In this document: in pieces, positions 18,984 to 34,204 of the stretch
Position numbering within the stretch: the first letter of the stretch is position 1
Layout: each line of letters begins with the position of its first letter
Assembly: GCF_019303475.1 (NCBI RefSeq)
Contig: NZ_JABLSI010000019.1
Location: forward strand, 62,001-126,000
Reading direction: 5' to 3'
DNA: 64,000 bases
Origin: Streptomyces sp. JJ38
GTDB lineage: Bacteria > Actinomycetota > Actinomycetes > Streptomycetales > Streptomycetaceae
The notes under the pieces: generated by a model
Database searches by the model: none
What the model was told of the DNA's origin: nothing
What the model saw: the letters and a program-made list of their open reading frames with translations, nothing else
Program-made: the position numbers and the translations under genes

Positions 18984-19010
18984 GTGCGGGTGTCTCCTGA
19001 TGAGGTGGGA

Positions 19011-20012
19011 TCAGCGGGCGGAGGCGGTGGTGAAGGTCTCGCGGACCATCGCTCCGTCGGCGCCTTGGGCGAGCAGGGCGTGCAGGAGGAGCCGCGCCTG
19101 GTACGGGCCGAGGTCTCCGGCGCCGATGAGCCCTCGGCCGAGGAGGTCCTTCTCGGAGCCGGGGAAGCCGTACGTGTCGGACAGGACGGGCCCGTTGCCG
19201 ATGCGGGATGCGAGGACCACGGGGATGCGGGACGCGAGCTTGGTGAGCCCTTCGACGAGGCGCTCCGGGACGTGGCCGACGCCGAAGGCCGCGACCACGA
19301 GTCCGTCACAGTTGCCGTCCCACAGGTCGAGCAGGGTGCCGTCGTCGCCGAGGGTGACGGTGTAGAGCCCGACGCGCGCCTCGCGGGTGGGGGCGCCGAT
19401 CAGCGGTCCGCGGGGCGGTAGGCCGCCTACCATCCGCACCCGGTTCTCCGCGATCCGCGCGATCGGGCCGCTTGCTGGTGAGGTGAAGGCGCCTGGGCTG
19501 GTGGTGTGGGACTTGCGGACGGTCCGTGCCGAGTGGATCTCGTCGCCGAGTACGACGAGGCAGCCAGCGCCGGCGAGTCCGGGGTCGGCTGCGGTCAGGA
19601 CGGCGGCGTGGAGGTTGGCCGGGCCATCGGCGCCGGGCAGGGTGGGGTTGCGCATCGCGCCCGTGACGACGATCGGCTGCTCGTGACCGTGGTAGAGGTC
19701 GAGGAGGAACGCGGTCTCCTCGATGGTGTCGGTGCCCTGGGTAACCACGACGCCGTCGACGTCTCCGGTCTCCAGCTCCGCCGTGATCGCGGCGGACAGT
19801 GCGGTGAGGTCCTCGAAGGCCAGGGAGGCGCCGGGCAGGCGCCGGAAGTCCCGAACCTTGAGGCCGATGCCGCTCGTGGCCAGGGCGGGTACCGCGGCGA
19901 GGAGCTCGTGGGCCGAGAGCGCGGGTACGACGCCTCCGGTGGCGGGATCCGTGGTCATGGCGATCGTGCCGCCGAGGGAGAGGACCGCCACGTTCCTGAC
20001 CGACTCCGTCAT
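19011..20012 (-). CDS. L-asparaginase/glutaminase family amidohydrolase
   Basis: 333 residues. The two asparaginase signatures are present: VLSLGGTIAM with nucleophile Thr16, and VVVTQGTDTIEETAFLLDL with the second Thr and Asp. VTGAMR, then DGPANLHAAV, supports the type. No signal peptide is seen, so the enzyme is cytoplasmic. In this setting it may act on a pathway amide rather than in general nitrogen metabolism, but no evidence favours that. It lies between the PPC gene and the XRE regulator, all in one direction. Confidence 0.9.
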   Translation of the reverse strand: MTESVRNVAVLSLGGTIAMTTDPATGGVVPALSAHELLAAVPALATSGIGLKVRDFRRLPGASLAFEDLTALSAAITAELETGDVDGVVVTQGTDTIEETAFLLDLYHGHEQPIVVTGAMRNPTLPGADGPANLHAAVLTAADPGLAGAGCLVVLGDEIHSARTVRKSHTTSPGAFTSPASGPIARIAENRVRMVGGLPPRGPLIGAPTREARVGLYTVTLGDDGTLLDLWDGNCDGLVVAAFGVGHVPERLVEGLTKLASRIPVVLASRIGNGPVLSDTYGFPGSEKDLLGRGLIGAGDLGPYQARLLLHALLAQGADGAMVRETFTTASAR

Positions 20013-20071
20013 ATCCCCTGCTCCCCTGTCCGGACGCCGCCGAGCGCGGCCTCACGAGTGGTTCACGCAGG

Positions 20072-21643
20072 CTATCGGGTCGGCGCCGTCCGGGTACGCG
20101 GAATGATCACCAGCTGCTCGGCCACGAACCGGCAGGCGGCCTCAAGCCCTTCGAGGCCGAGCAACCGGCTGCGTGGCCGGGCCAGCCGCTCCGTACCGGC
20201 TGCCGACAAATGTGCGCACCGGCGACCGAGCCAGGAGGTGTCGAGGCCGAGGTAATCCGCGGTCGCCGCCAGGCGCTGTCCGGCCTGTTCGGCCGCCGTG
20301 GCCGAGCGGTGGCTGACGTGGCCGGTCACATCGGCGAACGTCCGCAGGGCTCCCGGCCGCGCGGTGACCGCGAGGTGGGAGGCCCCCTCGGTCCGTACCC
20401 ATGTGGCGACGACGGCCCGGCGCCCCGGGGAGAGGGCGAAGCCGTCGGTGTGAGCGAAGCCTCCGTCGTCGGTCACCCAGGTGCGGATGCCGAAGGACTC
20501 CATGAGCGCGATGGCGAGGAAGAGCAGAACGCGCTCGTACGCGGGCGAGGAGGCCACGGCCGTCTCGGGGACGCAGAACCCCCGGCCGCTGGTACCACCC
20601 GGACGCCTGGGCGCCATTCGTTCCAGGTACTGGTACTTGTGCCGGAAGAACAGCCACGTGGCGGCTTCCTCACCACGCTGTTCCCTGGTCCAGAAGACAG
20701 GAGCGTCGCCCAGGTGGTCACGGTGGCCCAGGATGTACCGAGCCGCGGTCTCCGAGCCGATCAGCATCCTGGAGACTTCGGTCAGGCCGTGGTCAGAGGC
20801 CAGAGGTGAGCCTGGGGAAGCGGTGAGCGACGCTGGCGAGTTGTACAGGACTTGGTCATCGCCGAGGAGCGCCGCCTCGAAACCAGACACGGCCCACAGG
20901 ATGCCGTAGGTCAGATCGTCCAGTTCGTACGCGGCGGGGATGTCGACCGGGGCTGAGGCGACGGCGCGTACGTCGCTCGGTCGGGCGTCGGTGACGAACT
21001 GTCGGACCGCCCCGTCCACCGTGCGGTTCGCGACGACGAGCGCGCGCATCGGCATGGTGCGCCAGGCATCCAGCTCGGGGCGGGAGTCGAGTCGCAGGCT
21101 GTCCCCGAGAAAGGAGGCGGCAGGAAGGGTCAGTACAGGAAGCGCCGTCGTCGAGACGGACCGGCCGGCGGGTAACAGAAGCTGACCCGGCCCTTCGGGC
21201 AGCGCCGCGTACCCACGGGCTCCGGTGTCCCCCGTTCCCGGTCGTCCCGTGGAGCCCGGGGTGTGCGGATCGGCCGTGGGCAGGAGCCCGATCAGTTCCT
21301 CCGGAACTCCCAATGCATCAGTCCATTGGACGAACTGCCGTCGGTCGCGGATCTGTTTGAGCCCTCGTTCCAGTCTGCTGACTTCGGCCTGGTCGATGCT
21401 GACCATCCGCGCCACGCCGGCCTGGGAGAGGCCCGTGTGCTTCCTGAACAGCTTGACGACGGGGCCGAGTTCCCATGCGACCACGGCTCGCCGGACCGTC
21501 GGATCACGCCAGAAGGCCGGGTCGGCCCGTCGGGCGGTCGGCCCGTCCTGGCACGAGGCGCATCGTGTACCGGCGTTGAAGCGGCTGAGAAGGGCACCGC
21601 AGCGCGTGCACCGCCGCTGTCCGCTGTCGACCATGGTCGGCAT
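20072..21643 (-). CDS. Zinc-ribbon/XRE family regulator of the adjacent cluster
   Basis: 523 residues. Residues 11-34 contain CTRCG and CASC, a zinc ribbon. Residues ~60-115 are an XRE helix-turn-helix (LFRKHTGLSQAGVARMVSID, then AEVSRLERGLKQIRDR). The remaining ~400 residues are mainly helical with no named domain. Large XRE regulators of this layout usually sit at the head of Streptomyces specialised-metabolite clusters. It is divergent from the operon starting at 21791, and the gap contains an operator-like motif also found before the 17915 gene, which suggests autoregulation and control of both. Confidence 0.8.
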   Translation of the reverse strand: MPTMVDSGQRRCTRCGALLSRFNAGTRCASCQDGPTARRADPAFWRDPTVRRAVVAWELGPVVKLFRKHTGLSQAGVARMVSIDQAEVSRLERGLKQIRDRRQFVQWTDALGVPEELIGLLPTADPHTPGSTGRPGTGDTGARGYAALPEGPGQLLLPAGRSVSTTALPVLTLPAASFLGDSLRLDSRPELDAWRTMPMRALVVANRTVDGAVRQFVTDARPSDVRAVASAPVDIPAAYELDDLTYGILWAVSGFEAALLGDDQVLYNSPASLTASPGSPLASDHGLTEVSRMLIGSETAARYILGHRDHLGDAPVFWTREQRGEEAATWLFFRHKYQYLERMAPRRPGGTSGRGFCVPETAVASSPAYERVLLFLAIALMESFGIRTWVTDDGGFAHTDGFALSPGRRAVVATWVRTEGASHLAVTARPGALRTFADVTGHVSHRSATAAEQAGQRLAATADYLGLDTSWLGRRCAHLSAAGTERLARPRSRLLGLEGLEAACRFVAEQLVIIPRTRTAPTR

Positions 21644-21790: not shown

Positions 21791-22552
21791 GTGACCTCCT
21801 TGACCCTGCCGCCCCGGCCTCCCGGGTCGCCGCCGCTGGCCCATGCCTGGCAGACGCTGGCGGACGGGCTGCTGACCCAGCGGCTTCATCTCCATCTCGA
21901 CGAATGGCGGGCTGCTGTCGCCGAGGAGAAGGCGCTGTCGGACGTGCCGGGCGCCGATATCTCCGTGCTGGCCCAGCGCCCGTCGCCGCTGCCGGTGGGC
22001 GACGGGTCCGCGATGGCGCTGCTGGAGGACGCCGGGCTTGGCTTCTGGTGGGAGCTGCCCCAGCGGCACGGAGCGGAGTCGCGGAACCAGTGCGGGACGC
22101 TTCACCGCGCCGCCGACACCGCTGCCCAGAGCCTCCTCGCGGAGGAGTCCGGGGCGGCCTGGTCCGACGCCGTGACCGCCGTCAGCGCCGCCGCCGCGTG
22201 GTGGGTGGGCTTCTTCACGGTCATCCGCCACCGCGGGGTGCACCACATCACGCTGGAGCCGCACCAGGGCCCGCTCCATGAGCAGGCCCTGGGCACCGCG
22301 GTCAGCGTCGTGGCCCACGGCATGGCCACGCGAGTGCTGGAGGCGGCGCTGCACGACTCCGACGACGACCCGGCCCTCCGCGCCGCGTACTGCCGGGCCG
22401 TCGAGGCCGGCATCTGCGCCGAGCCCGAGCTGCCCCAACTGGTAGACGAGTTGGCGGAGCTGCGGCTGGTGGACCTGGTGTCCACGACGGCCCGCTGGCG
22501 GGGCCGCTTCACCAAGTACGCCGGTGGCACGGGGGCGGGGCAGGTCGAATGA
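21791..22552 (+). CDS. Unknown protein, first gene of the radical SAM operon
   Basis: 253 residues from the GTG at 21791, chosen because GTGAGGAT lies at ribosome-site distance upstream; a GTG at 21776 is also in frame. The protein is helical with a central hydrophobic stretch (AVSAAAAWWVGFFTVI) and a His-rich segment (RHRGVHHITLEPHQG). No domain is recognised. It overlaps the kinase-like gene by four bases, so it belongs to the operon. Confidence 0.7.
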   Translation: MTSLTLPPRPPGSPPLAHAWQTLADGLLTQRLHLHLDEWRAAVAEEKALSDVPGADISVLAQRPSPLPVGDGSAMALLEDAGLGFWWELPQRHGAESRNQCGTLHRAADTAAQSLLAEESGAAWSDAVTAVSAAAAWWVGFFTVIRHRGVHHITLEPHQGPLHEQALGTAVSVVAHGMATRVLEAALHDSDDDPALRAAYCRAVEAGICAEPELPQLVDELAELRLVDLVSTTARWRGRFTKYAGGTGAGQVE

Positions 22553-23235
22553 ACCACCGTTATCCGTTCATCGTCATCGAGGGGCTCGACGGCACGGGCA
22601 AGACGACGCTGCGCAAGGGCCTGTTCCGGCTCTGGGAGGGGCTCTACGGCGTCACCCCGCTGTGCGTGCTCACCACCAACTTCCTCGCCGCCGGCCAGGC
22701 CGCCGCCATCGTCACCGGCAAGTCCCAGCCGAACGCCGGGAACCGTGACGCCCACCTGTCCGCGATCGCGGCGGACAAGCGGGCCACGCTGGATCGCCTC
22801 GTGCTCCCCCAGCGACCGGCCCGGCCCGTGATCGCGGATCGCTGGCTGCTCAGCGAGCTGGCCTTCTTCGCCGTGAAGCACGGCATGAGGGCGTCGGAGA
22901 CCTACGAGACGCTGGCCGCGCACCTCACCGTGGCCCCCGATCTCACGCTCGTCCTGGACCTGGAGACCGACGTCTCGATGAGCCGGGCGCAGGCCCGCCA
23001 AGGTGACGCCGTCCGGGCCGACTGGGACGTACACGACGTCCAGAGCCGGGTTCGCGAGACCTACGAGGCCGTGGTCACGAAGCCCGACGCGTTCCCGCTC
23101 CTCGGCGACGTGGTCCGCCTGGACGCCCGCCGGTCCCGGTCCGAGATGTTGCTCGCCGCCTGGGACGTACTGCGCGAACGGCAGCTGGTGCCGTCGCTTG
23201 CCGCCCATGCGGAAGGAGGAGAGATCCATGGCTGA
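22549..23235 (+). CDS. Thymidylate-kinase-like P-loop kinase
   Basis: 228 residues. IVIEGLDGTGKTTLRKGLF is the P-loop of the dTMP kinase family, VIADRWLLSELAF matches the DR(Y/W) motif, and RAQARQGDAVRADWD fits the LID. The essential dTMP kinase of Streptomyces is normally elsewhere, so this cluster copy probably phosphorylates a pathway nucleotide or other monophosphate. Overlaps both neighbours, including eight bases with the PEP-mutase-like gene. Confidence 0.82.
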   Translation: MNHRYPFIVIEGLDGTGKTTLRKGLFRLWEGLYGVTPLCVLTTNFLAAGQAAAIVTGKSQPNAGNRDAHLSAIAADKRATLDRLVLPQRPARPVIADRWLLSELAFFAVKHGMRASETYETLAAHLTVAPDLTLVLDLETDVSMSRAQARQGDAVRADWDVHDVQSRVRETYEAVVTKPDAFPLLGDVVRLDARRSRSEMLLAAWDVLRERQLVPSLAAHAEGGEIHG

Positions 23236-24097
23236 CGACACGAAGGCGACGCGTCTGCGTGAGGCCCTCGACGACAGCGAGCGGAAGCACCCGCTCCTGG
23301 CGATCGGTGCGGTGAACGCACTCGCCGCGCACGTCGCGGCGGAGGCGGGCTTCGATGCCCTGTGGGTGAGCGGTCTGGAGGTGTCCGCGGCCTCCGGGCT
23401 GCCGGACGCCAACGTCCTGGGCCCCCGGGACCTGTCCGACGTGGTCGCCTCGCTCGGCCGTGTCACCGAGCTGCCCGTCATCGTGGACATCGACAACGCG
23501 GGCGGCTCGGGGCGCACGGCGGAGCGGTTCGCGTACGACCTGATGCGCGCCGGAGCCGCGGCAGTGTGTGTCGAGGACAGCGCGTACCCCAAGTGCAACA
23601 GCTTCGCGGCCCACCGGGCCCAGAGCCTCGCCGACCGGGACCTGTTGTGCGAGCAGGTGGGGCGCATACGGAAGCTCGCTGGTGACGGCCTCGTGGTCGT
23701 GGCCCGCACCGAGGCCCTGATCGCAGGCGAGGACATGGCTACGGCGATCGCCCGCGCCGAGGCGTACGCCGAGGCCGGAGCGGATGCGATCCTCATCCAC
23801 TCCAAGGACGCGACCGGTGATCAGGCGCGGGTCGTCGGGCGTGCGTGGAGCCACGGCGCGCCGCTGGTCAGCGTGCCCACGGCGTTCCCCGGCCTGAGCG
23901 CTGCCGAGCTCGACGAGGCCGGCTTCCACCTCTGCATCTACGCGAACCAGCTCAGCCGTGCCGCCCTCGCGGGTATGCGCACCGCCGCCCGTCAGTTCCG
24001 GCGCGGAGGGAGTTTCCGCTCCACCGTCGCGGGGTCCCTCGCGGAGGTCGGCGACCTGATGCGCGTCGGCGAACCGGAGGCGCTGTCGTGCCTCTGA
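23228..24097 (+). CDS. PEP mutase/isocitrate lyase family protein with altered active site
   Basis: 289 residues from an ATG with AAGGAGGAGAG upstream. It follows PEP mutase along most of its length: HPLLAIGAVNALAAHVAAEA, WVSGLEVSAASGLPD, VVVARTEALIAGEDMATAIA and AGADAILIHSKD. The diagnostic PepM motif EDK-x5-NS is EDSAYPKCNS here, so the Lys is Ser, and the usual DxDTGYG loop is VDIDNAGGSG. A true P-C bond-forming mutase is therefore uncertain; a lyase, a hydrolase or a different mutase is possible. No phosphonopyruvate decarboxylase is nearby. Position in an overlapping operon shows it belongs to the pathway. Confidence 0.82.
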   Translation: MADDTKATRLREALDDSERKHPLLAIGAVNALAAHVAAEAGFDALWVSGLEVSAASGLPDANVLGPRDLSDVVASLGRVTELPVIVDIDNAGGSGRTAERFAYDLMRAGAAAVCVEDSAYPKCNSFAAHRAQSLADRDLLCEQVGRIRKLAGDGLVVVARTEALIAGEDMATAIARAEAYAEAGADAILIHSKDATGDQARVVGRAWSHGAPLVSVPTAFPGLSAAELDEAGFHLCIYANQLSRAALAGMRTAARQFRRGGSFRSTVAGSLAEVGDLMRVGEPEALSCL

Positions 24098-24558
24098 CGC
24101 CCGAACTGCCTCGGATCAGTGTCTCCGTGAAGGCGGCGATCGTACGCGACGGCACCGTCCTGCTGCTGTCGTACGACGACGAAGCCGGGTTCCACTACAA
24201 CCTCCCGGGCGGCAAGGCCCAGGTCGGCGAGGACCTGCGCCAGGCCGTGAACCGCAAGGTCGCGCAGGAGACCGGCCTGCAGGTCGTGGCCCGGCGTCTG
24301 CTGTGTGTCGTCGAGTACGTCCCCGAGTCGTGGCAGGGCGAGTTCGGAGACGTACAGAAGGTTCAGTTCAACTTCCTCGCGGAGCAGGTGGACGACGCCG
24401 AGCCGCGCATGCCGGAACCGCCGGACCCCCTCCAGGTGGGCTACGAGTGGGTTCCGCTGGAACGTATGAGCGACGTGTACCTGCTGCCCCGGATCAACCG
24501 CCCGCTGTCGGCGGCGTTGAGAGGGGAACTCGCCGACCCCTTCGTGGACAGGTGGTGA
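24088..24558 (+). CDS. Nudix-fold protein with a degenerate Nudix box
   Basis: 156 residues from a GTG at 24088 inside the end of the previous gene. ISVSVKAAIVRDGTVLLLSY is the first strand pair, and the box begins GKAQVGEDLRQAVN with Gly and Glu in place. The catalytic REuxEExGu part reads RKVAQETGL: the first Glu is Lys and the next is Gln, so metal binding should be weakened. It may bind rather than cleave a nucleotide-linked intermediate. Fold assignment is firm, catalysis doubtful. Confidence 0.8.
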   Translation: MPLTPELPRISVSVKAAIVRDGTVLLLSYDDEAGFHYNLPGGKAQVGEDLRQAVNRKVAQETGLQVVARRLLCVVEYVPESWQGEFGDVQKVQFNFLAEQVDDAEPRMPEPPDPLQVGYEWVPLERMSDVYLLPRINRPLSAALRGELADPFVDRW

Positions 24559-24563
24559 CCTTC

Positions 24564-25229
24564 ATGGATCCGACGTTGAAGGATCTGCGGGAGTGGCTGT
24601 TGCGGGAGCACTCCGGAACGGTCTGTGCCGACCGGCTCCGGGTGATCGCCGACGAACTCGCCGACATGACCGCCCGCGGTCTGCCGGGAGCCGTGGTCGA
24701 ACTCGGCTGCTACAGGGGCGCGATGGCCCTCTGGACCCGTAGCGTGCTCGACTCGCTGGGCGACCGCGACCGCGAGATCCACGTCTACGACTCCTTCCAG
24801 GGCATGCCCGCGCCCGGCGCCGAGGACTCGGACCATCTGTCGGCGGGCGAGCTCCGGTCATCCCCGGACGACGTGCGAGCCACGCATGCGGCCTGGGGCA
24901 GGTCGGCGCCGGTCATCCATCCGGGGTGGTTCGACGAGACCCTTCCCAAGGAGTTGCCCGACGAGATCGCGTTCGCCTACCTGGACGGCGACTTCCACGA
25001 CGCGACCCTCACGGGACTCACGCACTGCGTCACCCGCCTGGTGCCGACGGGCGTGTCGCTCGTCGACGACTACGCGGACACGGCGGTCAATCCACGGGCC
25101 TGGGACGGGCTCCCGGGGGTGAAGCGCGCCTGCGACGCGTACTTCGGCGCGCCTTCGCCCGTGACCGTCGTCGTCGGCGAGGGTGATCTGGCCTTTGGCC
25201 GGTACGAGAAGCCGGGGTCCCTCGGATGA
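24564..25229 (+). CDS. TylF/MycF-type O-methyltransferase family protein
   Basis: 221 residues from the ATG at 24564; an in-frame GTG at 24555 overlapping the upstream stop is also possible. VVELGCYRGAMALWTRSVLD is the SAM site, IHVYDSFQGMP follows as in macrocin O-methyltransferases, and IAFAYLDGDFHDATLTGL plus SLVDDYAD give the metal-binding Asp residues. These enzymes methylate sugar or small-molecule hydroxyls with Mg2+. It supports a non-peptide component in the product or a modified side chain. Confidence 0.85.
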   Translation: MDPTLKDLREWLLREHSGTVCADRLRVIADELADMTARGLPGAVVELGCYRGAMALWTRSVLDSLGDRDREIHVYDSFQGMPAPGAEDSDHLSAGELRSSPDDVRATHAAWGRSAPVIHPGWFDETLPKELPDEIAFAYLDGDFHDATLTGLTHCVTRLVPTGVSLVDDYADTAVNPRAWDGLPGVKRACDAYFGAPSPVTVVVGEGDLAFGRYEKPGSLG

Positions 25230-26149
25230 GCGCAGTCCTCGTGGTGCGCGGAGCGGCGGATGCGGGTGCGATCCGCCGCGCGCTGCCCGGCGTTCTCGTG
25301 CACGACTTAGTGGACCTGAACTCGCCCCTGCCCTCCGACACGGCTGTGGTTGTCCTGCGTTCCGGTGTCCGACTCGGCGAGCGGGAGCTCGACGCACTGC
25401 CCCGCCTGCGGCACGTCGTACGGACCGGCTCCGGCATCGACCACATCGACGTAAGCGCCCTCCAACGCCGTGGCATCACGCTGCACCGCAACGCCGAGGC
25501 CGGCGCTGGCGCCGTGGGAGAGTGGGTCCTCGCCGCTGCCCTCGCCCTGGCCCGGCGGATCCCCCTGGGGCAGCACGCGCTGCTGCTCGGCCAGCACGAG
25601 AAGCACGCGTGCATGGGAGCAGCACTCGGCACCCTGGCCGCGGGTATCTGGGGCGCGGGCCCGGTGGGGCTGGCCGCCGAGTGGGCCCTCGCTCCCTACG
25701 TGGACCGCACGGCCTTCGCCACGTGGCCGTCGAACCCTCCCGGTCTGCGTGAGCTGTCGCAGACAGCGCTCATGGAGCAGTCGCAGGTGCACGTGATCGT
25801 TCTGCCGCTGCGCCCCACGACCGAACATCTCATCGGCGAGGACTTCCTCGCACGCGTCTCTCCGCAGAGCCCTCTGCTGATCTGCGCAGGGCGCCTGGAG
25901 ACCCTCGACGTCGCCGCCTGCCTGCGGGCACTGGCAGACGGGAGGCTCTCGGGCCTCGCCCTCGATCCGGTCGAGCGGGAGCACCTGCCGCTCCTCACCG
26001 GCTCCGAGACGCCGCTCAACCTCCTGGCCTCGCCCCACATCGGCGCCCAGCGCACCGACGTGCGCAGCGCGCTCGACCGATGGGCCATCGCTCTCCTCAA
26101 GGAGATCACCGCTGACGACAAGATCCTGATCGAAGGAGGCCACCGGTGA
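25226..26149 (+). CDS. D-isomer-specific 2-hydroxyacid dehydrogenase-like protein
   Basis: 307 residues. Substrate-domain strand VVRTGSGIDHIDVSALQRRG, then nucleotide-binding AAGIWGAGPVGLAAEWALAP with GxGxxG, and IVLPLRPTTEHLIG. The catalytic Arg region is ICAGRLETLD, Glu is in ALDPVEREHLP, and the His is in ASPHIGAQRT. The Rossmann part after GxGxxG is short and the acidic residue that usually binds the NAD ribose is not evident. ATGA overlap with the methyltransferase and GTGA overlap with the next gene place it firmly in the operon. It probably reduces or oxidises a 2-oxo/2-hydroxy acid. Confidence 0.82.
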   Translation: MSAVLVVRGAADAGAIRRALPGVLVHDLVDLNSPLPSDTAVVVLRSGVRLGERELDALPRLRHVVRTGSGIDHIDVSALQRRGITLHRNAEAGAGAVGEWVLAAALALARRIPLGQHALLLGQHEKHACMGAALGTLAAGIWGAGPVGLAAEWALAPYVDRTAFATWPSNPPGLRELSQTALMEQSQVHVIVLPLRPTTEHLIGEDFLARVSPQSPLLICAGRLETLDVAACLRALADGRLSGLALDPVEREHLPLLTGSETPLNLLASPHIGAQRTDVRSALDRWAIALLKEITADDKILIEGGHR

Positions 26150-27012
26150 ACCCATCGGCACGACTGCGCCGGGAGATCGCCGACAGAGTCGCCCACGAGC
26201 TGATCGCGTCCGGCGAGGCCCGCGAGGTCTGGCTGGAGGGAGCCCTCGCCTGCGGCTTCGCCCACGCGGCGAGCGACGTCGACCTGCGCGGCATCGTGGA
26301 CGGCGCCCTTCCGGCGTGGGAGTCGCGCATCGTGGACGGCGTCCGTGTCGACCTCCAGGCGGCGGCGCCGCAGCGGGCGGAGGAACTCCGTCATCTGCTC
26401 CGCTCCTTCGACGTCCGCCGCGACGACCTCGGATCGTTCCGCCGGGTACGCGCCTCGATGCACGACCTCATGTGTCTGCGCACCGCTCTCTCGTACGGCT
26501 CCGGACGCTGGGATCCGGTGCTCGATCCCGGGGAGCGCCGGGGCTACCGACGCTGGGCGGTCGCCGACCAGGCCGAGATCGCGGCGAGTCTCGCCGAGGA
26601 CCTGACCGGTCTCGTCGAGGACGGCATGGCCGAACCCGTCGGCGTCGTGTGCCGGAAGCTGGAGATCTGCCTCACCGCGCTCGAGTGCGCGGCGGCCGGC
26701 CATCCGGTCCTGGGCGACAAGTGGCTGCCGCTGCTTGCCGACGCTCCGTTCGGTCCGCCGATCCACCCGGCCCGCGCGGAGACGTGGGAGTGGTTCCGTC
26801 CGGTTCAGCGACGCGTGGCCAGAGCGCTCCTGGACTGCTGGCCCGTCGACGACCCGCTGCAGAAGCCTCCCAACCTGACTGCCCCCGACGCCGGCTGGCT
26901 GCCCCAGCGGTACGCCGACGGGTGGTTCCTTCGCCGCGGCGACGTCCACATCCCCATCACCGGCGGACAGCTTCTCGGGTGGCTGTCCATGGTCTCCACC
27001 GATGGCGCGTAG
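26146..27012 (+). CDS. Nucleotidyltransferase-fold protein
   Basis: 288 residues from a GTG. EVWLEGALACGFAHAASDVD has the layout of a polymerase-beta-type nucleotidyltransferase (Gly-Ser-like turn then Ser-Asp-x-Asp). The usual GS pair is EG, so the donor site is not canonical. A helical C-terminal domain (MAEPVGVVCRKLEICLTALE) follows, as in KNTase-like proteins. It may adenylylate or cytidylylate a pathway acid or phosphate. Overlaps the dehydrogenase gene by four bases, with 30 bp to the radical SAM gene. Confidence 0.75.
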   Translation: MNPSARLRREIADRVAHELIASGEAREVWLEGALACGFAHAASDVDLRGIVDGALPAWESRIVDGVRVDLQAAAPQRAEELRHLLRSFDVRRDDLGSFRRVRASMHDLMCLRTALSYGSGRWDPVLDPGERRGYRRWAVADQAEIAASLAEDLTGLVEDGMAEPVGVVCRKLEICLTALECAAAGHPVLGDKWLPLLADAPFGPPIHPARAETWEWFRPVQRRVARALLDCWPVDDPLQKPPNLTAPDAGWLPQRYADGWFLRRGDVHIPITGGQLLGWLSMVSTDGA

Positions 27013-27042
27013 ACCGCGCCTCTCCTCCTCAGGAGTCCTCTG

Positions 27043-28902
27043 ATGCCCCTCACCCGCACCGCCCCCATAGACCTGAAGACTCTCCACGCCCCGCTGTCGA
27101 ACACCGGGCCGGACACGGCCGTCTCCGTCATCCTCAAGCTCCGCGGGGAGACCTGCGACATCGACTGCCTGTACTGCTTCGAGAAGCGCAAGGAGTCGCC
27201 GGGCGGCGCCCGGATCAGCGCCGCACAGGTCCACCGCCTCGGTTCGATCTTCTCCGGGCGTCCGCTCAGCGTCGAACTCCACGGCGGAGAGCCCCTGACC
27301 GCCGGCCGGGAACGGATCACGGAGATCCTGGACGCGCTCGCCACACAGCCGAACGTCATCCGCGTGAGCCTCCAGACCAACGGCCTCCAGCTCGACGACG
27401 CCTGGTTGGACCTGTTCGAGCGGCACTGTCCGGAGCTGGAGATCGGCATCTCCCTCGACGGGGACGCGCTTGGGAACTCGTGGCGCGTCGGGTACGACGG
27501 CCGCCCCACGTACCCCCGAGTAATCGAAGCCCTGGAACTCCTCGGCCGTCGGGAACGCCGCGTCGGCGTCATCTGCGCCGTCACCCCCTACGTCCTCGGC
27601 CGGGCCTCCGAGGTCATGGAGCACCTCGCCTCCTTTCCCGCCGTGACGACGGTCAGCCTGGTGCCGTGCTTCGACGCGGCGGTCACCCGGTCGACTACGG
27701 TGGCTGGATCCCGTGCGCCGACCAGTCGGGCACTCCAGCGACGAGCCATCGGCCCCACCGGCCCGGCCTGGGCCGTCACGCCACGCCAGTACGCTGACTT
27801 CGTGCTGGAGTCCGCCCACCACTGGGTCGCCAGCGGCATGTTCCGCCACGTCAAACTGGAACCGGTCGTCTCGGTCATCCGCCGCCTGAGGGGCCTGCGC
27901 ACCCGCTCCTGTCACTTCTCCGACCTGAAGTGCGACCACGTCCTCACCCTCTACCCCGATGAGCGCCTGGGAAGCTGTGACGAGTTGCCCTGGCCGCAGG
28001 CCGGCCTCGACTCCCTCGGCGACGTCCACACCGAGGCGGACGTGGCCAGTGCCCAGGGCGGCTCTCGCTTGCTTCAACAGGCACGCTCCCTGGCCACGAA
28101 GTGCACGACCTGCGACTACCGCGACACCTGCGGCGCGGGCTGCCCGGCGGTCCGCCTCCGCTTCGCCGCTGCGGGCGACGAAGACGCGTACTGCGACCAC
28201 CGCATACGCCTGATCGACGGCGTCGCCGCCCTCCTCGCCCAACCGGAACTCCCGCCCGGCGCCTCCTGTTCCCGGCTTCACTGGCGTCCCATCCGCCCCA
28301 ACGACATGCACCACGTCGCGGCGTTCCTGGCCCGGTGGGACGACCCGGCGGCGCCCCGTCCGCCCGCGCGCCTTCAGGTCAGCGCCCACTGCAACATCAA
28401 CAGGGTCGGCCTCCCCGGCGTGCAAGAGGCAGACGATCTCGACCCCCACCATCCCCAGTGGCACGAAGGCATCGAGCCCGGTATCCGCCCGGTCATCGAC
28501 GCGCTCACCTCAGGCTGGAACACCGTCACCTATGACAGCTGCCAGGGCCACGCCTATGCCGACCTCCCCGGAGCCGAGTCCCGGTTCCTCTCGGTCGGCA
28601 TCCTGCCACGCGACCGCGCCGAGTACGCACGTACAGCGGCGCGCCTGTGCCGCGCCGCCAGCCGAGCCGAGTCCTCCCTGCCCGGGGCGTGCTCGCTGGT
28701 CCTCGGTCGCAGCGAACTCACGTGCCGCAGCACCGGCAGGATCTATCCGACGCTCGACCTCCATCTCGTGCCCGCTGCCGGCACCACGTCGGCCGAGTAC
28801 TTCGGGGACCTCGCCCAAGCGGTGCACGTACTCACGGTGGCCCTGGCCGAAGCCGCCTCTGTCCCGCCCTCCACCCCCTGCGCGTGCGGAGGCGAGCAAT
28901 GA
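27043..28902 (+). CDS. Radical SAM/SPASM protein with an extra C-terminal domain
   Basis: 619 residues. The cluster motif is Cys38-x3-Cys42-x2-Cys45 (CDIDCLYCFEKRK), followed by SVELHGGEPLTAG (GGE motif) and VSLQTNGLQLDD. Residues ~285-390 hold SPASM cysteines: SCHFSDLKCDH, GSCDELPW, then CTTCDYRDTCGAGCPAVRL and YCDHR. This layout is typical of RiPP maturases that form C-C or C-X crosslinks. From about residue 405 there is an additional ~210-residue domain (RLQVSAHCNINRVGLPG, VTYDSCQGHAYADLPG, FLSVGILPRDRAEYA) that I cannot assign. It overlaps the oxygenase gene by four bases. Confidence 0.9.
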   Translation: MPLTRTAPIDLKTLHAPLSNTGPDTAVSVILKLRGETCDIDCLYCFEKRKESPGGARISAAQVHRLGSIFSGRPLSVELHGGEPLTAGRERITEILDALATQPNVIRVSLQTNGLQLDDAWLDLFERHCPELEIGISLDGDALGNSWRVGYDGRPTYPRVIEALELLGRRERRVGVICAVTPYVLGRASEVMEHLASFPAVTTVSLVPCFDAAVTRSTTVAGSRAPTSRALQRRAIGPTGPAWAVTPRQYADFVLESAHHWVASGMFRHVKLEPVVSVIRRLRGLRTRSCHFSDLKCDHVLTLYPDERLGSCDELPWPQAGLDSLGDVHTEADVASAQGGSRLLQQARSLATKCTTCDYRDTCGAGCPAVRLRFAAAGDEDAYCDHRIRLIDGVAALLAQPELPPGASCSRLHWRPIRPNDMHHVAAFLARWDDPAAPRPPARLQVSAHCNINRVGLPGVQEADDLDPHHPQWHEGIEPGIRPVIDALTSGWNTVTYDSCQGHAYADLPGAESRFLSVGILPRDRAEYARTAARLCRAASRAESSLPGACSLVLGRSELTCRSTGRIYPTLDLHLVPAAGTTSAEYFGDLAQAVHVLTVALAEAASVPPSTPCACGGEQ

Positions 28903-29636
28903 TCCACATCGCCGAGACTCTGTCCACCCGTACTGTGGAGGGCTTCCTCAAGCCGGACGAGATCGAGCGACTCAACCTCGTCATGGACGACACGCTCGGC
29001 TCCCTCGGGCGCGACCGGCACGGCACGGCCCGCCGCACCACCATCCACGAGATCCCCGGTCACTCCCCCGCCGAGGCGCAGGACGTATACGAGCCGGCCG
29101 GCCGGATCGAGATGACCGACATCCCGTACGAGGCGACCACCGTCCTCGACCAGGCCCTGACGCTCCACATGTCCGCGATCACGCGCGCGCTGCCATCGGT
29201 CACCGGCCACCGGCCGTGGATCTACCTGGAGTACGGCCCCGGCCAGTACATCACCCCGCATGCCGATGGCATCGCCCCCGACCCCGTCACCCGTCCCCGC
29301 CAGATCGCCGCCGCGACGGTCACGCTCACGGACATCCACGACACCGGCGGCGCGTTCTACGTGGAGACCACGGGCAGCGACGCCGTCTGGACCGCCGACG
29401 AGGCACCGATCGGATCGGGTTACGCCCAGGGAATGCGCTTCGCACTCGACGGGACTGACATGTCCTCCCCCTGGTTCCGAACCATGCCCCGCACCCGATG
29501 GAGCGTCGCACCCGCTCCCGGCACGCTCGTGGTCTTCGGAAGCCAACTCGTCCACGGCACCGAACCTGTCCGCACCGGCCGCGTACGCAAGTTCCTCACG
29601 CTCTTCGTCTCTGACCAGGGAGCCCCGCCACCATGA
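28899..29636 (+). CDS. 2OG-Fe(II) oxygenase
   Basis: 245 residues from the ATG at 28899. The iron ligands are His and Asp in QYITPHADGIAPDP and His in QLVHGTEPVRTGRVRKFL, where an Arg follows for 2-oxoglutarate. Preceding text PWIYLEYGPGQYI is the typical strand of prolyl-4-hydroxylase-like folds. It should hydroxylate an unactivated carbon on a peptide or small acid. Position between a peptide maturase and a short peptide gene suggests peptide hydroxylation. Confidence 0.88.
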   Translation: MIHIAETLSTRTVEGFLKPDEIERLNLVMDDTLGSLGRDRHGTARRTTIHEIPGHSPAEAQDVYEPAGRIEMTDIPYEATTVLDQALTLHMSAITRALPSVTGHRPWIYLEYGPGQYITPHADGIAPDPVTRPRQIAAATVTLTDIHDTGGAFYVETTGSDAVWTADEAPIGSGYAQGMRFALDGTDMSSPWFRTMPRTRWSVAPAPGTLVVFGSQLVHGTEPVRTGRVRKFLTLFVSDQGAPPP

Positions 29637-29707
29637 CCGGACCCCGTAGCCCGCCCGAACCCGCCCATCCCACAACCCACGGCCCCGATCAGAGGAGAGA
29701 GCGAGCA

Positions 29708-29869
29708 GTGGCAGAAGACAAGACGTTCGACGAGTTCCTGGAGGCGGTCGCGTCCCTGCGCGACAGCGACACCGTGCGCACCACCGCGCACACCTCCAAC
29801 GCGGCCACCGAGACCTGGCTTGCCAACACGGCGGAGCCCGGCACCACCAAGCCCACCAGCACCTCCTGA
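29708..29869 (+). CDS. 53-residue candidate precursor peptide
   Basis: Starts at a GTG (29708) with AGAGGAGAG upstream. The N-terminal half is acidic and helical (MAEDKTFDEFLEAVASLR), as in leader peptides. The C-terminal half is rich in Thr, Ser, Ala and Asn with one Trp (ATETWLANTAEP, then GTTKPTSTS). It sits between the oxygenase and the HExxH gene and is followed six bases later by a strong hairpin. It has no Cys, so it is not a lanthipeptide or sactipeptide. Trp41-Leu-Ala-Asn could be the site of radical crosslinking or hydroxylation. Assignment as substrate is inferred from position, size and composition. Confidence 0.65.
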   Translation: MAEDKTFDEFLEAVASLRDSDTVRTTAHTSNAATETWLANTAEPGTTKPTSTS

Positions 29870-29875
29870 CCGCCA

Positions 29876-29905
29876 CGGGGCCGGCCCATCCAGGGGCCGG
29901 CCCCG
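29876..29905 (+). terminator. Hairpin after the precursor peptide gene
   Basis: 12-bp GC-only arms CGGGGCCGGCCC and GGGCCGGCCCCG around six bases. It lies between the 53-residue peptide gene and the HExxH gene. Probably a partial terminator or RNA stabiliser that raises the amount of peptide mRNA over the downstream gene, an arrangement common after RiPP precursor genes. Confidence 0.65.
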
Positions 29906-29926
29906 TCCCGCACCCCTGGAGCTCAG

Positions 29927-30829
29927 ATGAGCGCTCTCTCCCCGGAAGCTCTGGTCACCCTCGACGGCATCGCTGACTACCAGCACCGCCGGACCAGCCG
30001 CATCGCGGCCGTACTCGGCAACCGCCTCTGCTCGTCCGCCCTTGACTACGCCGTGGCCCACCACCTGCTCGAAGGCGCCGAACACGCGGCGCGCGCCCGG
30101 GACGCGGACCGCCTCGCCTGGTACTGCAAGACGACGACGCGAGACCTGCCCCGCCTGTCCGCCGACCCGCACATCGTGCTCAACCCGCGCTCCGCGGACC
30201 TCCTCCACTCGGAGATCTCCGAAACCGCGTACTACCTCGTTGGCCCCGACACCAGCCCCGCCCCACCCGAGGTCCTTGGCCTCGTTCGTGCCGCCATCGC
30301 CTCCGCGACCGAGCACGGCTTCGGGACCCTGCTCACCCAGCACGCCCCCGTCATCTGCCTGCTCAACCGTCGCCGACTCGACGAGACCCTCCACAGCTGG
30401 GCCCTCACCCGCCTCCCGGGCACCGTCTTCACCGACTACACCGCCCACCCCGAGGTCCTGGCCCGCGACCTGATCCACGAGGCCGCCCACAACTGGCTCA
30501 ACGACACCCTGGCCGCGTACGACGTGGAGCTTCCCGCCGACGTCACCTTCTTCTCGCCCTGGCGGGGAACTCCCCGTCCCCTATACGGCTTTCTTCACGC
30601 CTGCTGGGCCTTCTCCCTCACCGTGCTGTACGTACGGGAGGCGCGGTGCAGCGCCACGGGCGCCGTCGTACCCTTCCTCGACGCCCACCTGCGCCAGCAG
30701 GCTGTCCAGTTCGCTGCCGCTGCCGCTGCCGCTGCCGAGTGCTTGGATCAGGCCCTCTCGTACGTGTCAGCAAACGAAATCCGTGATCGCATCGGCCGCG
30801 CAGTCGGCGAGGTCGTGGGTCCCGCATAG
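29927..30829 (+). CDS. HExxH-type peptide beta-hydroxylase-like protein
   Basis: 300 residues. His184-Glu-Ala-Ala-His188 (DLIHEAAHNWLNDTL) is followed by FFSPWRGTPRPLYGFLHACW, the downstream signature of the HEXXH domain found beside radical SAM RiPP maturases. Members of this family have been described as 2-oxoglutarate-dependent peptide beta-hydroxylases rather than proteases. The N-terminal half is helical (SSALDYAVAHHLLEGAEHAA). The C-terminal helix has a run of Ala residues. It is the last gene of the operon and would be the second hydroxylase acting on the peptide. Confidence 0.8.
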   Translation: MSALSPEALVTLDGIADYQHRRTSRIAAVLGNRLCSSALDYAVAHHLLEGAEHAARARDADRLAWYCKTTTRDLPRLSADPHIVLNPRSADLLHSEISETAYYLVGPDTSPAPPEVLGLVRAAIASATEHGFGTLLTQHAPVICLLNRRRLDETLHSWALTRLPGTVFTDYTAHPEVLARDLIHEAAHNWLNDTLAAYDVELPADVTFFSPWRGTPRPLYGFLHACWAFSLTVLYVREARCSATGAVVPFLDAHLRQQAVQFAAAAAAAAECLDQALSYVSANEIRDRIGRAVGEVVGPA

Positions 30830-31150: not shown

Positions 31151-31357
31151 ATGGCCGACATGACGACGATCTACGTTGAGGTGGCGCCCGAGTTCGAGCC
31201 GGTGCGGGCGGCGTTCAAGGAGAACTTCACCCGGCACGGGGACCTCGGGGCGGCGGTGTGCGTGTACCGGAACGGCCGACCGGTGGTCGACCTGTGGGGC
31301 GGCGTGACCGACGCCGAAACCGGTCGTCCCTGGACGCGGGACACGCTGCAACTGGTC
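31151..31357 (+). pseudogene. 5' fragment of a class C beta-lactamase-like serine hydrolase gene
   Basis: About 69 residues match the N-terminus of EstA/beta-lactamase-class-C proteins: FEPVRAAFKENFTRHGDLGA, AAVCVYRNGRPVVDLWGGVT and PWTRDTLQLVYS. The expected next residues (the SxxK nucleophile region, usually S-T-T-K) are absent, because from here the sequence is the antisense of the endonuclease remnant. The hydrolase was apparently cut by arrival of the restriction genes. I did not find its other half in the window. Confidence 0.75.
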
Positions 31358-31926
31358 TACTCGGCGTACCGGATGTTGTACGGAAGCGTCGTCCTGAGCG
31401 ACTTCAACAGGGCGAGCAGGTTTGTCTCGCCTGCCACGAGGCCCTCGACCGGTCGGTCGAGATCGATCGGCTTACAGGGCGTCGAAATGGGTGGGCTTGA
31501 GCGGTGTGGTCCCGCTGCTGACCGGGAGCCCTATTTGCCGAAGCTGTCGTTGTTCCACGGGATCTCGCCCAGGTTCTTGCGGTGGTTGATGAGCAACTGC
31601 TCCGGCGCCAGGGCGAGAAGTCCTCCGCCACGTAGAGACAGGAGAAGGTCATGCCATTCGGCGTGATCCCACGCCGGCCCGAAGTCTTCTTGAGGTGCTG
31701 TCGAAGTCGCATCGGCAGGGACTTCTCGGCCTTCCCCACGTAGACGAAATCGTCGTGCAGGTAGAGCTGGTAGACACCGGGGCGCTGCAACAGCTGCTTG
31801 ATGCTCACGTCACTCAAGAGGGTCCTGGTCAGCTTGGCGAGATCCGCCGCGAGCTGATCGCCGAGTGCCTTCGGGTGAAGCTTCGGGGGAATGTCGGCTC
31901 CTCCGGCCCCCTGCTGTCGCCGTCAT
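31357..31926 (-). pseudogene. Decayed Eco29kI-family (GIY-YIG) restriction endonuclease
   Basis: Minus-strand pieces in changing frames make one protein: KLHPKALGDQLAADLAKLTR, SDVSIKQLLQRPGVYQLYLH, DDFVYVGKAEKSLPMRLRQH (GIY-YIG core, with GVY and YVG), MTFSCLYVAED, then APEQLLINHRKNLGEIPWNN, KPTHFDAL and PIDLDRPVEGLVAGETNLLA ending at a TAG at 31357. Three or four frameshifts are needed. The longest intact part opens at a TTG (31817); an ATG at 31926 is a possible original start. Family members are about 200 residues, matching the 570-bp span. It is divergent from the cytosine methyltransferase, its likely former partner. Confidence 0.8.
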
Positions 31927-32060: not shown

Positions 32061-33410
32061 ATGCAACGGACGTCGGTGGAGCTCTTCGCGGGCGGGGGCG
32101 GGCTGGTCCAAGCCAGCACAAACACCGGCTTCCGGCACCTGCTACTGAACGAGTTCGCGAAGAGGGCGTGCGAGACGCTTGAGAGCAATCGCTTCGAGGC
32201 GTTTCCGGCGGACGTCGATTCCGATGTGCTGGCCAAGTGGCTGGACGAGATCGATAAGCAACGCGCGTTGGGTTTCGAAGCCGCAGGCGCCGCTGAGCGG
32301 CCCCAATACCCTCCCCTGATCACCGGCGACGTCCGAGGGTTGGACATGCGCTTCCTCAGGGAGCGAGATGTTGACCTTCTGGCCGGCGGGCCACCATGCC
32401 AGCCGTTCAGCCTTGGGGGAGTCGCGAAGGGTGACGAGGACGAGCGGAACATGTTCCCGGAGATGTTCCGGGCGGTTCGTGAGATTCGTCCCAAGGCCGT
32501 CATCTGTGAGAACGTCCGCGGGCTCCTTCGTCCGTCCTTCAATCCCTACTTCGAGTACATCAAGCGCGAACTGTCCCTGCCGTTCGTGAAGCGCCGACGG
32601 GGTGCCACGTGGCAGGAGCACGACCACGCGCTGCGGGAGCGACTCGACGCGAAGGACACCGATCCGGTGGAGACCTACGAGGTCACCCAACACGCCGTGA
32701 ACGCCGCTGACTACGGGGTGCCGCAGATCCGCAACCGGGTGATCCTCCTGGCGTTCCGCGCTGACCTGGGCGTGGACCCGGATCTGGTCAAGCGCGCTGT
32801 CGCGCGCACCCACTCCCATGCGGCCCTCGCGCGGACGATCCTCGATGGCTCCTACTGGGACCGCCACAAGCAGGCAGGCGCCAAGATCCCGAAGCGCGTC
32901 ATCGATCTGGTGACCTCGCGCTACGCGAATGAGCAGCTGTCGTTCGAGAGCGGGGATGAGGAGCTCCAGCCATGGCTCACCCTTCGAGACGCGGTAATGG
33001 GGCTCCCCAAGATCAACACCAGCATGTTGGACAAGACGACGGAACAGGGCGGATTCCCCGACCATGTCGGGTGGCCCGGAGCCAGGATCTACGACGGACA
33101 CACGCCCAACGAACTCGACCGACCGGCCAAGACCGTCAAGGCCGGGGTGCACGGTGTGCCCGGTGGCGAGTCGGTCATGCAGCTCGACAACTTGGTGCGT
33201 GACGAGAAGACCGGCCATTTGCGCCCCGAGCACCGCTACATGACCGTGCGCGAGACTGCCCGGGTCATGACATTCGGCGATGACTGGAGCATGGCGGGCC
33301 CGCGTGGTGAACGCATGAGGCAGCTGGGCAACGCGGTTCCCGTGAAGCTGGGCGAGGTGTTCACCAGCGCCGTCGCGAAAGCCCTCGACGACGCGGAACG
33401 GCGCTCATGA
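32061..33410 (+). CDS. DNA (cytosine-5) methyltransferase
   Basis: 449 residues. C5-methylase motifs appear in order: I SVELFAGGGGLVQ (residues 5-17), IV AGGPPCQPFS with catalytic Cys113, VI ICENVRGL (149 on), VIII PQIRNRVILL, IX RYMTVRETARVM and X RQLGNAVPVKLG. The variable region between VIII and IX sets specificity. Adjacent remains of an Eco29kI-like nuclease suggest the recognition sequence could be CCGCGG, but this is inference. With the nuclease dead, the enzyme may serve as an orphan methylase or mark self-DNA for the genes that follow. The Vsr gene overlaps it by four bases. Confidence 0.93.
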   Translation: MQRTSVELFAGGGGLVQASTNTGFRHLLLNEFAKRACETLESNRFEAFPADVDSDVLAKWLDEIDKQRALGFEAAGAAERPQYPPLITGDVRGLDMRFLRERDVDLLAGGPPCQPFSLGGVAKGDEDERNMFPEMFRAVREIRPKAVICENVRGLLRPSFNPYFEYIKRELSLPFVKRRRGATWQEHDHALRERLDAKDTDPVETYEVTQHAVNAADYGVPQIRNRVILLAFRADLGVDPDLVKRAVARTHSHAALARTILDGSYWDRHKQAGAKIPKRVIDLVTSRYANEQLSFESGDEELQPWLTLRDAVMGLPKINTSMLDKTTEQGGFPDHVGWPGARIYDGHTPNELDRPAKTVKAGVHGVPGGESVMQLDNLVRDEKTGHLRPEHRYMTVRETARVMTFGDDWSMAGPRGERMRQLGNAVPVKLGEVFTSAVAKALDDAERRS

Positions 33411-34204
33411 ACGACGCCGCCGAATCCCGGCAAATGGGCTGGAGGGACAAGCCGCCGCCCGAGAGGGCCTGGCGGGGACGGCAGGGACGGACGAGGAAGG
33501 CGATCGTCGCCGAACAGGATCGTGCCGCGGGTGGTCGGGAGGGCCGCTATGTCAAGCGCAAAGACGGCGACTACGCGCTGGCCTCGATCACGCTGAAATT
33601 GTTGCCCAGGACTCGTCGGATCAGGGCCTATCTCCGCTGGTCGGAGGACGGGCGTTCGCCCGCTCTGTATGTCGGGGAAGTGGAGCACCTGACGCGTGCG
33701 GCGAATCTCGAACAGGCTTGGCGGATCGCCAAGGACCGGGGATTGGTTGGAGAGCGTCCTCTCCCGGAAGGGTCGTGGGCGTCGTCCCCTGCCACGCGGT
33801 CAACAATGCGCGGGAACCGAGGCCGCGACACGGCACCGGAACTACGTATCCGCTCACTGCTGCACCGCGAGGGTCTGCGCTACCGAGTATCGGCGCGGCC
33901 GCTTCCCGGGCTGCGGCGAACCGCCGACCTCGTGTTCACCCGCGCCCGTGTCGCCGTCTTCGTGGACGGGTGCTTCTGGCACGGGTGCCCCGATCACTGC
34001 CGCCCAGCACGCACGAACAGTGACTTCTGGCGCGCCAAGATCGACGCAAACCGGGCCAGGGATGCCCAGACCGACCAGTTCCTGGCAGAGGCGGGATGGC
34101 GCGCCATCAGAATTTGGGAGCACGAGGATCCCGTACAAGCGGCGGGCCGGGTCGCCGCAGCCGTTCGCGACTTTGCGGCACGGAGTGATCACAACGTTCC
34201 GTGA
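33407..34204 (+). CDS. Vsr-type endonuclease with an extra N-terminal region
   Basis: 265 residues. Residues 135-260 match the very-short-patch repair nuclease: RGNRGRDTAPELRIRSLLHR, RTADLVFTRARVAVFVDGCF, WHGCPDHC and the C-terminal GWRAIRIWEHED. Asp174 is the candidate metal ligand, and the Cys/His residues form the structural zinc site. The first ~125 residues (YALASITLKLLPRTRRIRAY, ALYVGEVEHLTRAANLEQAW) form a separate domain not found in ordinary Vsr. Vsr proteins nick T:G mismatches made by deamination at methylated cytosines; in this context it may also be the nuclease of the defence system. Overlaps the methyltransferase gene. Confidence 0.88.
   Translation: MNDAAESRQMGWRDKPPPERAWRGRQGRTRKAIVAEQDRAAGGREGRYVKRKDGDYALASITLKLLPRTRRIRAYLRWSEDGRSPALYVGEVEHLTRAANLEQAWRIAKDRGLVGERPLPEGSWASSPATRSTMRGNRGRDTAPELRIRSLLHREGLRYRVSARPLPGLRRTADLVFTRARVAVFVDGCFWHGCPDHCRPARTNSDFWRAKIDANRARDAQTDQFLAEAGWRAIRIWEHEDPVQAAGRVAAAVRDFAARSDHNVP

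Follow-up and report, generated by a model that had tools for sequence, protein, structure and literature searches.

Antibiotics come from ribosomally synthesized and post-translationally modified peptide (RiPP) pathways as well as from phosphonate pathways, although the logic of the two is unrelated. Does a single operon bring the two together? The question is raised by a gene cluster at positions 21791-30829 of a 64,000-nucleotide stretch of Streptomyces sp. JJ38 DNA (hereafter the window; part of contig C29 in a genome of 5.9 Mb). Eleven coding sequences, the peptide gene counted, stand there in one operon-like row on the plus strand. In order, they encode a protein of unknown family (A), a kinase (B), a phosphoenolpyruvate (PEP)-mutase-family enzyme (C), a NUDIX protein (D), a TylF-type methyltransferase (E), a dehydrogenase (F), a nucleotidyltransferase (G), a radical S-adenosylmethionine (SAM) enzyme (H), a 2-oxoglutarate (2OG)-Fe(II) oxygenase (I), the peptide (J) and an HExxH hydroxylase (K). 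We read the cluster as an operon that combines the biosynthesis of a RiPP of a new type with a short phosphonate pathway, and consider the chances of this reading to be evenly balanced. The link between the peptide half and the acid half is certain at the gene level and likely at the pathway level.

Conservation of the gene set

A first-pass annotation of this DNA had described ten mostly overlapping genes here. All genes that it named are present on the plus strand, and overlaps, each of a few bases, were found at six of the ten junctions; the coding sequences number eleven with the peptide, and A, with its near-invariant tail, had gone unmentioned. Judged from the coordinates, these overlaps make co-translation of A-K likely.

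Protein H has matches at E ≤ 1e-50 in 15 of 391 genomes of the order (the window's own included), and at E ≤ 1e-60 its profile found the window's own genome alone among 396 genomes spread over the phylum. A scan of a genome collection with an alignment (A1) gave 59 loci, found via the radical SAM enzyme, in Streptomyces, Kitasatospora, Actinomadura, Nocardiopsis, Nocardia, Micromonospora, Actinospica and other actinobacteria. Counts out of 59 refer to one genome-contig set only (likely duplicates elsewhere: L129/L107, L123/L050 and L018/L032), and the loci were assigned to types by profile scores. Type 1, to which the window belongs, comprises 28 loci, 27 of them with C, E, I, A, F, G, B, D and K; in the 28th (L033) the contig ends ahead of J and K. 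These loci come from Streptomyces, Kitasatospora, Actinomadura, Micromonospora and one Actinomycetota metagenome-assembled genome. The gene order is the same, on one strand, in 28/28 (27 with J and K), even as protein identity falls to about 40-65% in divergent loci. The A-K gene set, its order and its conservation are directly observed, and the conservation is far beyond chance. The possibility that the two halves never co-occur, which the first-pass annotation had set against its own proposal, is rejected, since A-G stand together with the peptide enzymes in 28 of the 59 loci; the order kept throughout these loci bears out its view of one conserved unit and not accidental neighbours.

The full A-K set is kept with one radical SAM lineage. 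In a tree of 59 H sequences, all of at least 560 residues (28 type 1, 26 type 2 with L106, two type 3, L049, L107 and an outgroup sequence), the 28 type 1 rows, window included, form one branch with support of 98/96, and 0 of 500 label shuffles were as low as the value observed for this branch. L107, which has C, F, G and A and lacks E and I, falls outside the branch at an unresolved fork; the C/F/G/A module may thus predate the type 1 clade or may have moved.

Type 2 loci (25 of 59) have only I, B, D and K from the scored set, and the PEP-mutase module is absent. Because they keep the peptide, the maturases, the kinase and the NUDIX protein, the module is a discrete add-on, and B and D belong to the company of the peptide too, not only to the PEP-mutase module. 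The first-pass interpretation needs correcting in this respect. B, which is also present in type 2 and type 3, accompanies the peptide in 56/56 non-fragment loci, and D does so in all 56 except two of type 3. These two type 3 loci (L054 and L064) have E, I, B and K, the kinase being present and no NUDIX match being found. A variant, L049, has I, F, B, D and K plus two distant A-like proteins, without C; the region L049:973-13389 holds these A-like proteins, two peptides and a weakly G-like nucleotidyltransferase, again without a PEP mutase. A fourth arrangement, with A, B, C, D, F, G, H, J and K and without E and I, was found on a Kitasatospora cathayae plasmid (L107) and in two more genomes (L127 and L128).

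The limits of the unit were examined by comparing L047 with 13 other type 1 loci (3 near the window). A-I and K are common to 13/13; the short J was recovered by BLAST in 7/13, and a pattern search found it in every one. The XRE regulator upstream of A was matched in 8/13 and is associated, not universal (L046 and L080, two of the loci compared, have little sequence upstream of A). Beyond K, no gene reaches at least 4 of the 13. Since flanking genes are not consistently shared, we take A and K as the boundaries.

Features of the cluster and of the divergent regulator upstream of it (window coordinates)
Feature	Position	Strand	Evidence
XRE-type regulator	20072..21643	-	HTH_31 36.1 bits; upstream of A, divergent
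A, helical protein without family	21791..22552	+	no Pfam/NCBIfam match; C-terminal tail near-invariant (WRGRFTKYAGGTGAGQVE)
B, thymidylate-kinase-like kinase	22549..23235	+	PF02223 (Thymidylate_kin) 47 bits
C, PEP-mutase-family enzyme, EDS variant	23228..24097	+	PF13714 148.5 bits; TIGR02320 200 bits
D, NUDIX-family protein, altered box	24088..24558	+	PF00293 45.2 bits
E, TylF-type methyltransferase	24564..25229	+	PF05711 96.5 bits
F, D-isomer-specific 2-hydroxyacid dehydrogenase	25226..26149	+	PF02826 65.0 bits; PF00389 38.3 bits
G, nucleotidyltransferase, kanamycin-nucleotidyltransferase/ANT fold	26146..27012	+	S43-D44-x-D46 motif and predicted fold
H, radical SAM/SPASM peptide maturase	27043..28902	+	Radical_SAM 34.9 bits; SPASM TIGR04085 29.1 bits
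I, 2OG-Fe(II) oxygenase	28899..29636	+	PF13640 (2OG-FeII_Oxy_3) 32.7 bits, cut-off 27
J, 53-residue precursor peptide, GTG start	29708..29869	+	conserved in peptide alignment
K, aKG-HExxH-type peptide hydroxylase	29927..30829	+	TIGR04267 (mod_HExxH) 64 bits, cut-off 40

The precursor peptide and its modifying enzymes

Residue conservation was read from alignments with the following numbers of rows: A, 17; C, 12 and 7; F, 9; G, 12 and 15; H, 10; I, 16; J, 20; K, 19. J is present in 55 of the 59 loci, 54 by pattern plus L087. Among the four exceptions, the L033 contig stops short of J, and the other three (L081, L085 and L088) are fragments with an incomplete H and a NUDIX match. The first-pass annotation had made its proposal depend on conservation of the peptide, and F10, T26-A27-H28-T29 and W37 proved invariant in 20/20 rows (types 1, 2 and 3 and L049); L11, A13, V14, L17, R18 and S30 are nearly invariant and the C-terminal part is variable. 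Outside this alignment, R replaces A27 in the L087 peptide, and M and S replace A27 and T29 in that of L107. The core of the fourth arrangement reads RFTMHSSREGADDW, against TAHTS...W elsewhere. The ratio of nonsynonymous to synonymous substitution rates (dN/dS), computed with 3 of the 28 orthologues, is 0.19-0.62 for A-I and K, compared with 0.55-1.24 over the 53 codons of J in close pairs; support for J thus comes from the deep alignment and not from this ratio. As a short encoded peptide with a conserved recognition part and core and an adjoining maturase, J qualifies as a RiPP precursor. None of four J-type peptides checked matched an NCBIfam model above its cut-off.

H has the two hallmarks of a radical SAM/SPASM maturase, C38-x3-C42-x2-C45 being invariant in 10 rows and the SPASM score exceeding the cut-off of 27. 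Every peptide-maturase equivalog listed for H scores below its own cut-off. H also has an extra C-terminal domain of ~200 residues, for which no family match was found at E ≤ 0.1; in genome G328, a match to this domain is separate from the radical SAM portion and is encoded on the opposite strand. We rejected H as a viperin-like nucleotide enzyme: the PADLOC viperin match is weak (31.5 bits), and H has a SPASM domain and a precursor peptide.

In I, the HxD...H triad of 2OG-Fe(II) oxygenases (H121, D123 and H219) is invariant in 16/16 rows. K shows H184-E185-x2-H188 in 19/19 rows, with an SPWR or SPWK motif retained after it, and belongs to the TIGR04267 hydroxylases. It was reported previously that relatives with HExxH hydroxylate peptide residues and can cleave the backbone, and that a radical SAM-HExxH fusion adds beta-hydroxyl groups and needs a preinstalled cyclophane (PMC12636437). 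The TylF methyltransferase E tracks the oxygenase I, not the PEP mutase. E was found in 30 of the 59 loci, always alongside I, and I occurs without E in 26; in the type 3 locus L054, E and I lie side by side on the opposite strand, and the three K. cathayae-type genomes lack both. Because E occurs only where I does, the simplest reading is that E methylates a hydroxyl made by I.

A SPASM maturase, an HExxH hydroxylase and a short precursor are also found in the FxsB/ChlB-type radical SAM cyclophane RiPPs. The present cluster differs from these systems in the extra C-terminal domain of H and in its seven further genes. With the FxsB model (TIGR04269), H reaches 95.3 bits where the cut-off is 370, and 0/20 aligned J rows end in FxSxx, unlike the FxSxx-COOH systems.

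Candidate enzymes of the acid branch and the tail of A

By profile, the solved structures nearest to C are PEP phosphomutase (5unc, 199.8 bits), phosphonopyruvate hydrolase (2dua, 193.5 bits) and mussel PEP mutase (1m1b, 173.8 bits). The other active-site residues of the mussel enzyme (D58, D85, D87, E114, K120, N122, S123, R159 and H190) have equivalents in C (D60, D87, D89, E116, K122, N124, S125, R160 and H191) that are invariant in 12 rows. The signature of PEP mutases is EDK-x5-NS, and C carries a variant of it with EDS, also seen in the C-type enzymes of L107, L126 and L130. F has the hallmarks of D-2-hydroxyacid dehydrogenases, an NAD-binding GxGxxG and a catalytic Arg/His: G143, G145, G148, R223 and H271 are invariant in 9/9 rows.

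At E ≤ 1e-70, a C-type enzyme was found in 14 of 394 genomes of the family. Six of these were already among the loci and eight were added; two of the eight are type 1, three belong to the K. cathayae type and the remaining three have no peptide enzymes. In one of the last group, L126, the EDS enzyme is followed by two genes matching the halves of phosphonopyruvate decarboxylase (TIGR03297, 63.5 and 58.1 bits); Pfam identifies them as thiamine pyrophosphate domains, and neither half reaches the whole-protein cut-off of 312.5. L125 resembles L126, with 80% DNA identity over 6.6 kb. In L130, the EDS enzyme (252 bits to TIGR02320) precedes a dehydrogenase matching the F profile at 222 bits. The first-pass suggestion of a PEP-derived acid is likely in view of these neighbours, the split decarboxylase (L125/L126) and the dehydrogenase (L130). 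With the EDS variant adjoining either enzyme where the peptide is absent, PEP to phosphonopyruvate to phosphonolactate is the likeliest acid route, and C and F may form a phosphonolactate module, as family, active site and gene neighbours elsewhere suggest. According to PMC12871164, the forward drive on PepM comes from a decarboxylase, an aminotransferase or a 2-hydroxyacid dehydrogenase, and the dehydrogenase yields phosphonolactate. The cluster resembles such phosphonolactate-route pathways in its PEP-mutase-family and 2-hydroxyacid dehydrogenase genes, and it differs from them in joining a ribosomal peptide and a radical SAM maturase and in having EDS for EDK. Besides these genes, L126:6705-10654 contains a P-loop-like protein and, further on, a TauD-type oxygenase; L130:4646-9637 is a different phosphonate-type cluster, also with weak matches to cytidylyltransferase and F420 ligase families.

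G gave no Pfam match above cut-off. Its predicted model (predicted local distance difference test, pLDDT, 90.7) matches ANT(4')/kanamycin nucleotidyltransferase over 219-225 residues, with Z 9.7-10.1 and root-mean-square deviation (rmsd) 5.7-5.9 in the top four rows; structure matches with Z < 8 can be due to chance, and the rows of G exceed 8. Foldseek placed the nucleotidyltransferase HalB first (E 7.7e-5) and ANT-4 next (1.8e-4). S43, D44 and D46 are invariant in 15/15 rows and D69 nearly so, and the model indicates an ANT-like fold with metal-binding acids. G is thus predicted to share its fold and S-D-x-D with the aminoglycoside nucleotidyltransferases, and unlike them it sits in a conserved biosynthetic operon, at 7-9% identity (top five rows). 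A natural guess from the model is that G would be an O-nucleotidyltransferase acting on a hydroxyl. B scores 66 bits to TIGR00041, below the cut-off of 83.25. The NUDIX box, GX5EX7REUXEEXGU, is altered in D: RK stands for RE in the window and 27 of the 28 type 1 rows, RT stands there in L080, and in the window the first E of EE is Q.

A matched no Pfam or NCBIfam family. Whole-protein identity to the window is 44-61% in divergent type 1 loci, and 13 of the last 18 positions are invariant in 30/30 sequences with codons that change synonymously. The predicted model has a pLDDT of 85, with tail blocks below 60 and low-confidence first residues. Its best structural match, SjiH-Ni (Z 5.4, rmsd 3.8, 146 aligned), lies in a range common for helical models; Foldseek gave none at E ≤ 0.001, and the sequences of the PDB, searched by profile, yielded no match at E ≤ 1. 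Judged by model and alignment together, A is a protein family with a near-invariant tail and no clear fold relative. A tail so conserved and flexible could serve as a carrier, as a docking peptide or as a lid on the active site of a partner.

Three other accounts of A were considered and set aside. That A is an inactive HExxH paralogue finds no support, profile comparison with K giving a probability of 0.1%. The tail is not kept merely for the ribosome-binding site of B: the codons vary synonymously, L059 has no A/B overlap, and much of the tail is retained in two A-like proteins of L024, whose ends read QRFAKYTDGGGAGQH and RQFAKYRTGTGAGQGAD. Nor does A travel alone. It was matched in 13 of 391 genomes of the order, and H is absent only from a decayed remnant (G008/L104) and from G148, where the A match is weak (E 6.4e-4) and 0/15 window proteins were found within 15 kb around. 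The remnant, of type 1 (L104:11264-13039), has A and B nearly whole, C cut short and no radical SAM gene.

Competing explanations and the surroundings of the cluster

All reactions in the scheme that we propose are inferred. J would consist of a recognition part (FL-x-AV-x2-LR) and a core (T-A-H-T-S...W). From their families, H would make a radical cross-link or similar change in this core, and I and K would hydroxylate it. In parallel, C would convert PEP to phosphonopyruvate, and F would reduce this to phosphonolactate, pulling the unfavourable C reaction. G could nucleotidylate a hydroxyl, either on the acid or on the hydroxylated peptide, B and D may handle phosphoryl groups, and E would methylate a hydroxyl that I makes. 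A, with its near-invariant tail, may be the carrier or adaptor where acid and peptide meet. This joining is the least supported step of the scheme. It is a tentative proposal, and one that we regard as somewhat doubtful, that the products are the first RiPP-phosphonate hybrids: a dedicated PEP-mutase/dehydrogenase pair would make a C-P acid, either phosphonolactate or one of its derivatives, the ANT-fold enzyme would activate this acid, and it would be linked covalently to the radical-SAM-modified peptide, with the tail of A as carrier or docking element.

Several points weigh against a RiPP-phosphonate operon. C scores 200 bits against an equivalog cut-off of 319.55 for PEP mutase (TIGR02320), and it reads EDS-x5-NS in 12/12 rows, without the lysine of EDK. 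C-type enzymes also live without the peptide (L125, L126 and L130). No decarboxylase or aminotransferase was found among A-K. D may not hydrolyse, since the type 1 NUDIX box is altered, and because L049 has no C, a PEP mutase is not indispensable to A, F and G. Five of the 28 type 1 loci have one or more genes split into two or three parts (K in L035, E and I in L037, I in L042, F and K in L043, A in L083), from sequencing error or decay.

The score and signature of C would also suit a hybrid cluster in which C is another lyase or hydrolase of its superfamily; a carboxylic acid without a C-P bond would then be made, F would reduce a 2-oxo acid, and the hydroxy acid would decorate the peptide. 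Phosphonopyruvate hydrolase, moreover, came close to PEP phosphomutase in the solved-structure search (193.5 and 199.8 bits). We nevertheless consider this unlikely: K122, N124 and S125 of C are as in PEP mutase, whereas phosphonopyruvate hydrolase has T for N, and the EDS variant adjoins phosphonopyruvate decarboxylase in L126. In PQQ-like pathways (PQQ, pyrroloquinoline quinone), a small molecule is excised from a modified peptide, and J could likewise be a scaffold and not an acceptor, with PEP-derived carbon added during or after excision of the core product. The presence of B in all 56 non-fragment loci, and of D in all but two of type 3, suits a small phosphorylated product, and in the type 2 locus L053 a Beta-lactamase-family gene of 443 residues follows K, with similar frames in 19 of 24 other type 2 loci. 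Yet no peptidase family was matched among type 1 genes, and the sequence past the J core, which varies freely, fits a removable follower and says nothing on excision. We hold the scaffold role to be rather improbable.

An equally low probability is given to two independent pathways in one operon, whose products, a RiPP and a small molecule, would stay separate, e.g., as two co-made antibiotics. Such independence would agree with the 25 type 2 loci, which lack the PEP-mutase module, and with the EDS PEP mutases that occur without a peptide in L125, L126 and L130. However, the fixed order sets the kinase and NUDIX genes, companions of the peptide elsewhere, among the PEP-mutase genes, and the full module marks a single clade of the radical SAM enzyme. 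If the combined RiPP and phosphonate operon is real, it would give a new compound class reachable by ordinary expression, and it would put to the test the idea that C-P acids are attached to ribosomal peptides in nature, e.g., for uptake. Should the acid have no C-P bond, types 1, 2 and 3, united by the TAHTS core, still form a RiPP cluster group whose precursor, in the four peptides checked, matches no NCBIfam model above cut-off, and A still represents a protein family with a near-invariant tail and no clear fold relative. In the literature searched by title and start of abstract, a coverage that leaves out most subscription papers, no cluster of peptide and PEP-mutase genes was described and the J core motif was not found as text; the novelty is therefore provisional.

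The type 2 loci share NUDIX, H, X, I, B, Y, J and K, each in 24/24 other loci. X, a Cys/His-rich protein of ~208 residues (L053:11884-12507 in that locus), is present in 25/25 and scores above cut-off with no Pfam or NCBIfam model; profile comparison showed no similarity to A, G, H, I or K, and X was rejected as a counterpart of any of them. Y has a protein-kinase fold in L053 and L106. In L053 it weakly matches the lanthipeptide-type kinase families LanL (26.5 bits) and LanKC (21.7 bits); these scores are far below the cut-offs, and unlike lanthipeptide systems the J core has no cysteine.

Upstream of the cluster, 15802-21643 contains ARMT1-like phosphatase, PCC-domain, asparaginase and XRE genes, and the PCC and asparaginase genes accompany 7/13 of the type 1 loci compared with L047. 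A match to Aminoglycoside-2''-adenylyltransferase (PF10706, 33.6 bits) lies at 17915-18538. A MobA/VirD2-type relaxase match (27.7 bits) was found at 13932-15575, and linear plasmids carry a related cluster (L107) and a type 2 cluster (L106); the clusters may therefore be mobile. Downstream of K, 31151-31663 encodes a short Beta-lactamase-family fragment (45.3 bits over residues 22-82). Further on, a defence-like block at 32061-39290 comprises a C5 cytosine DNA methylase, a Vsr endonuclease and a HATPase protein, and one protein of the block has PADLOC matches to a type IV restriction enzyme (114.5 bits) and PbeA (91 bits).

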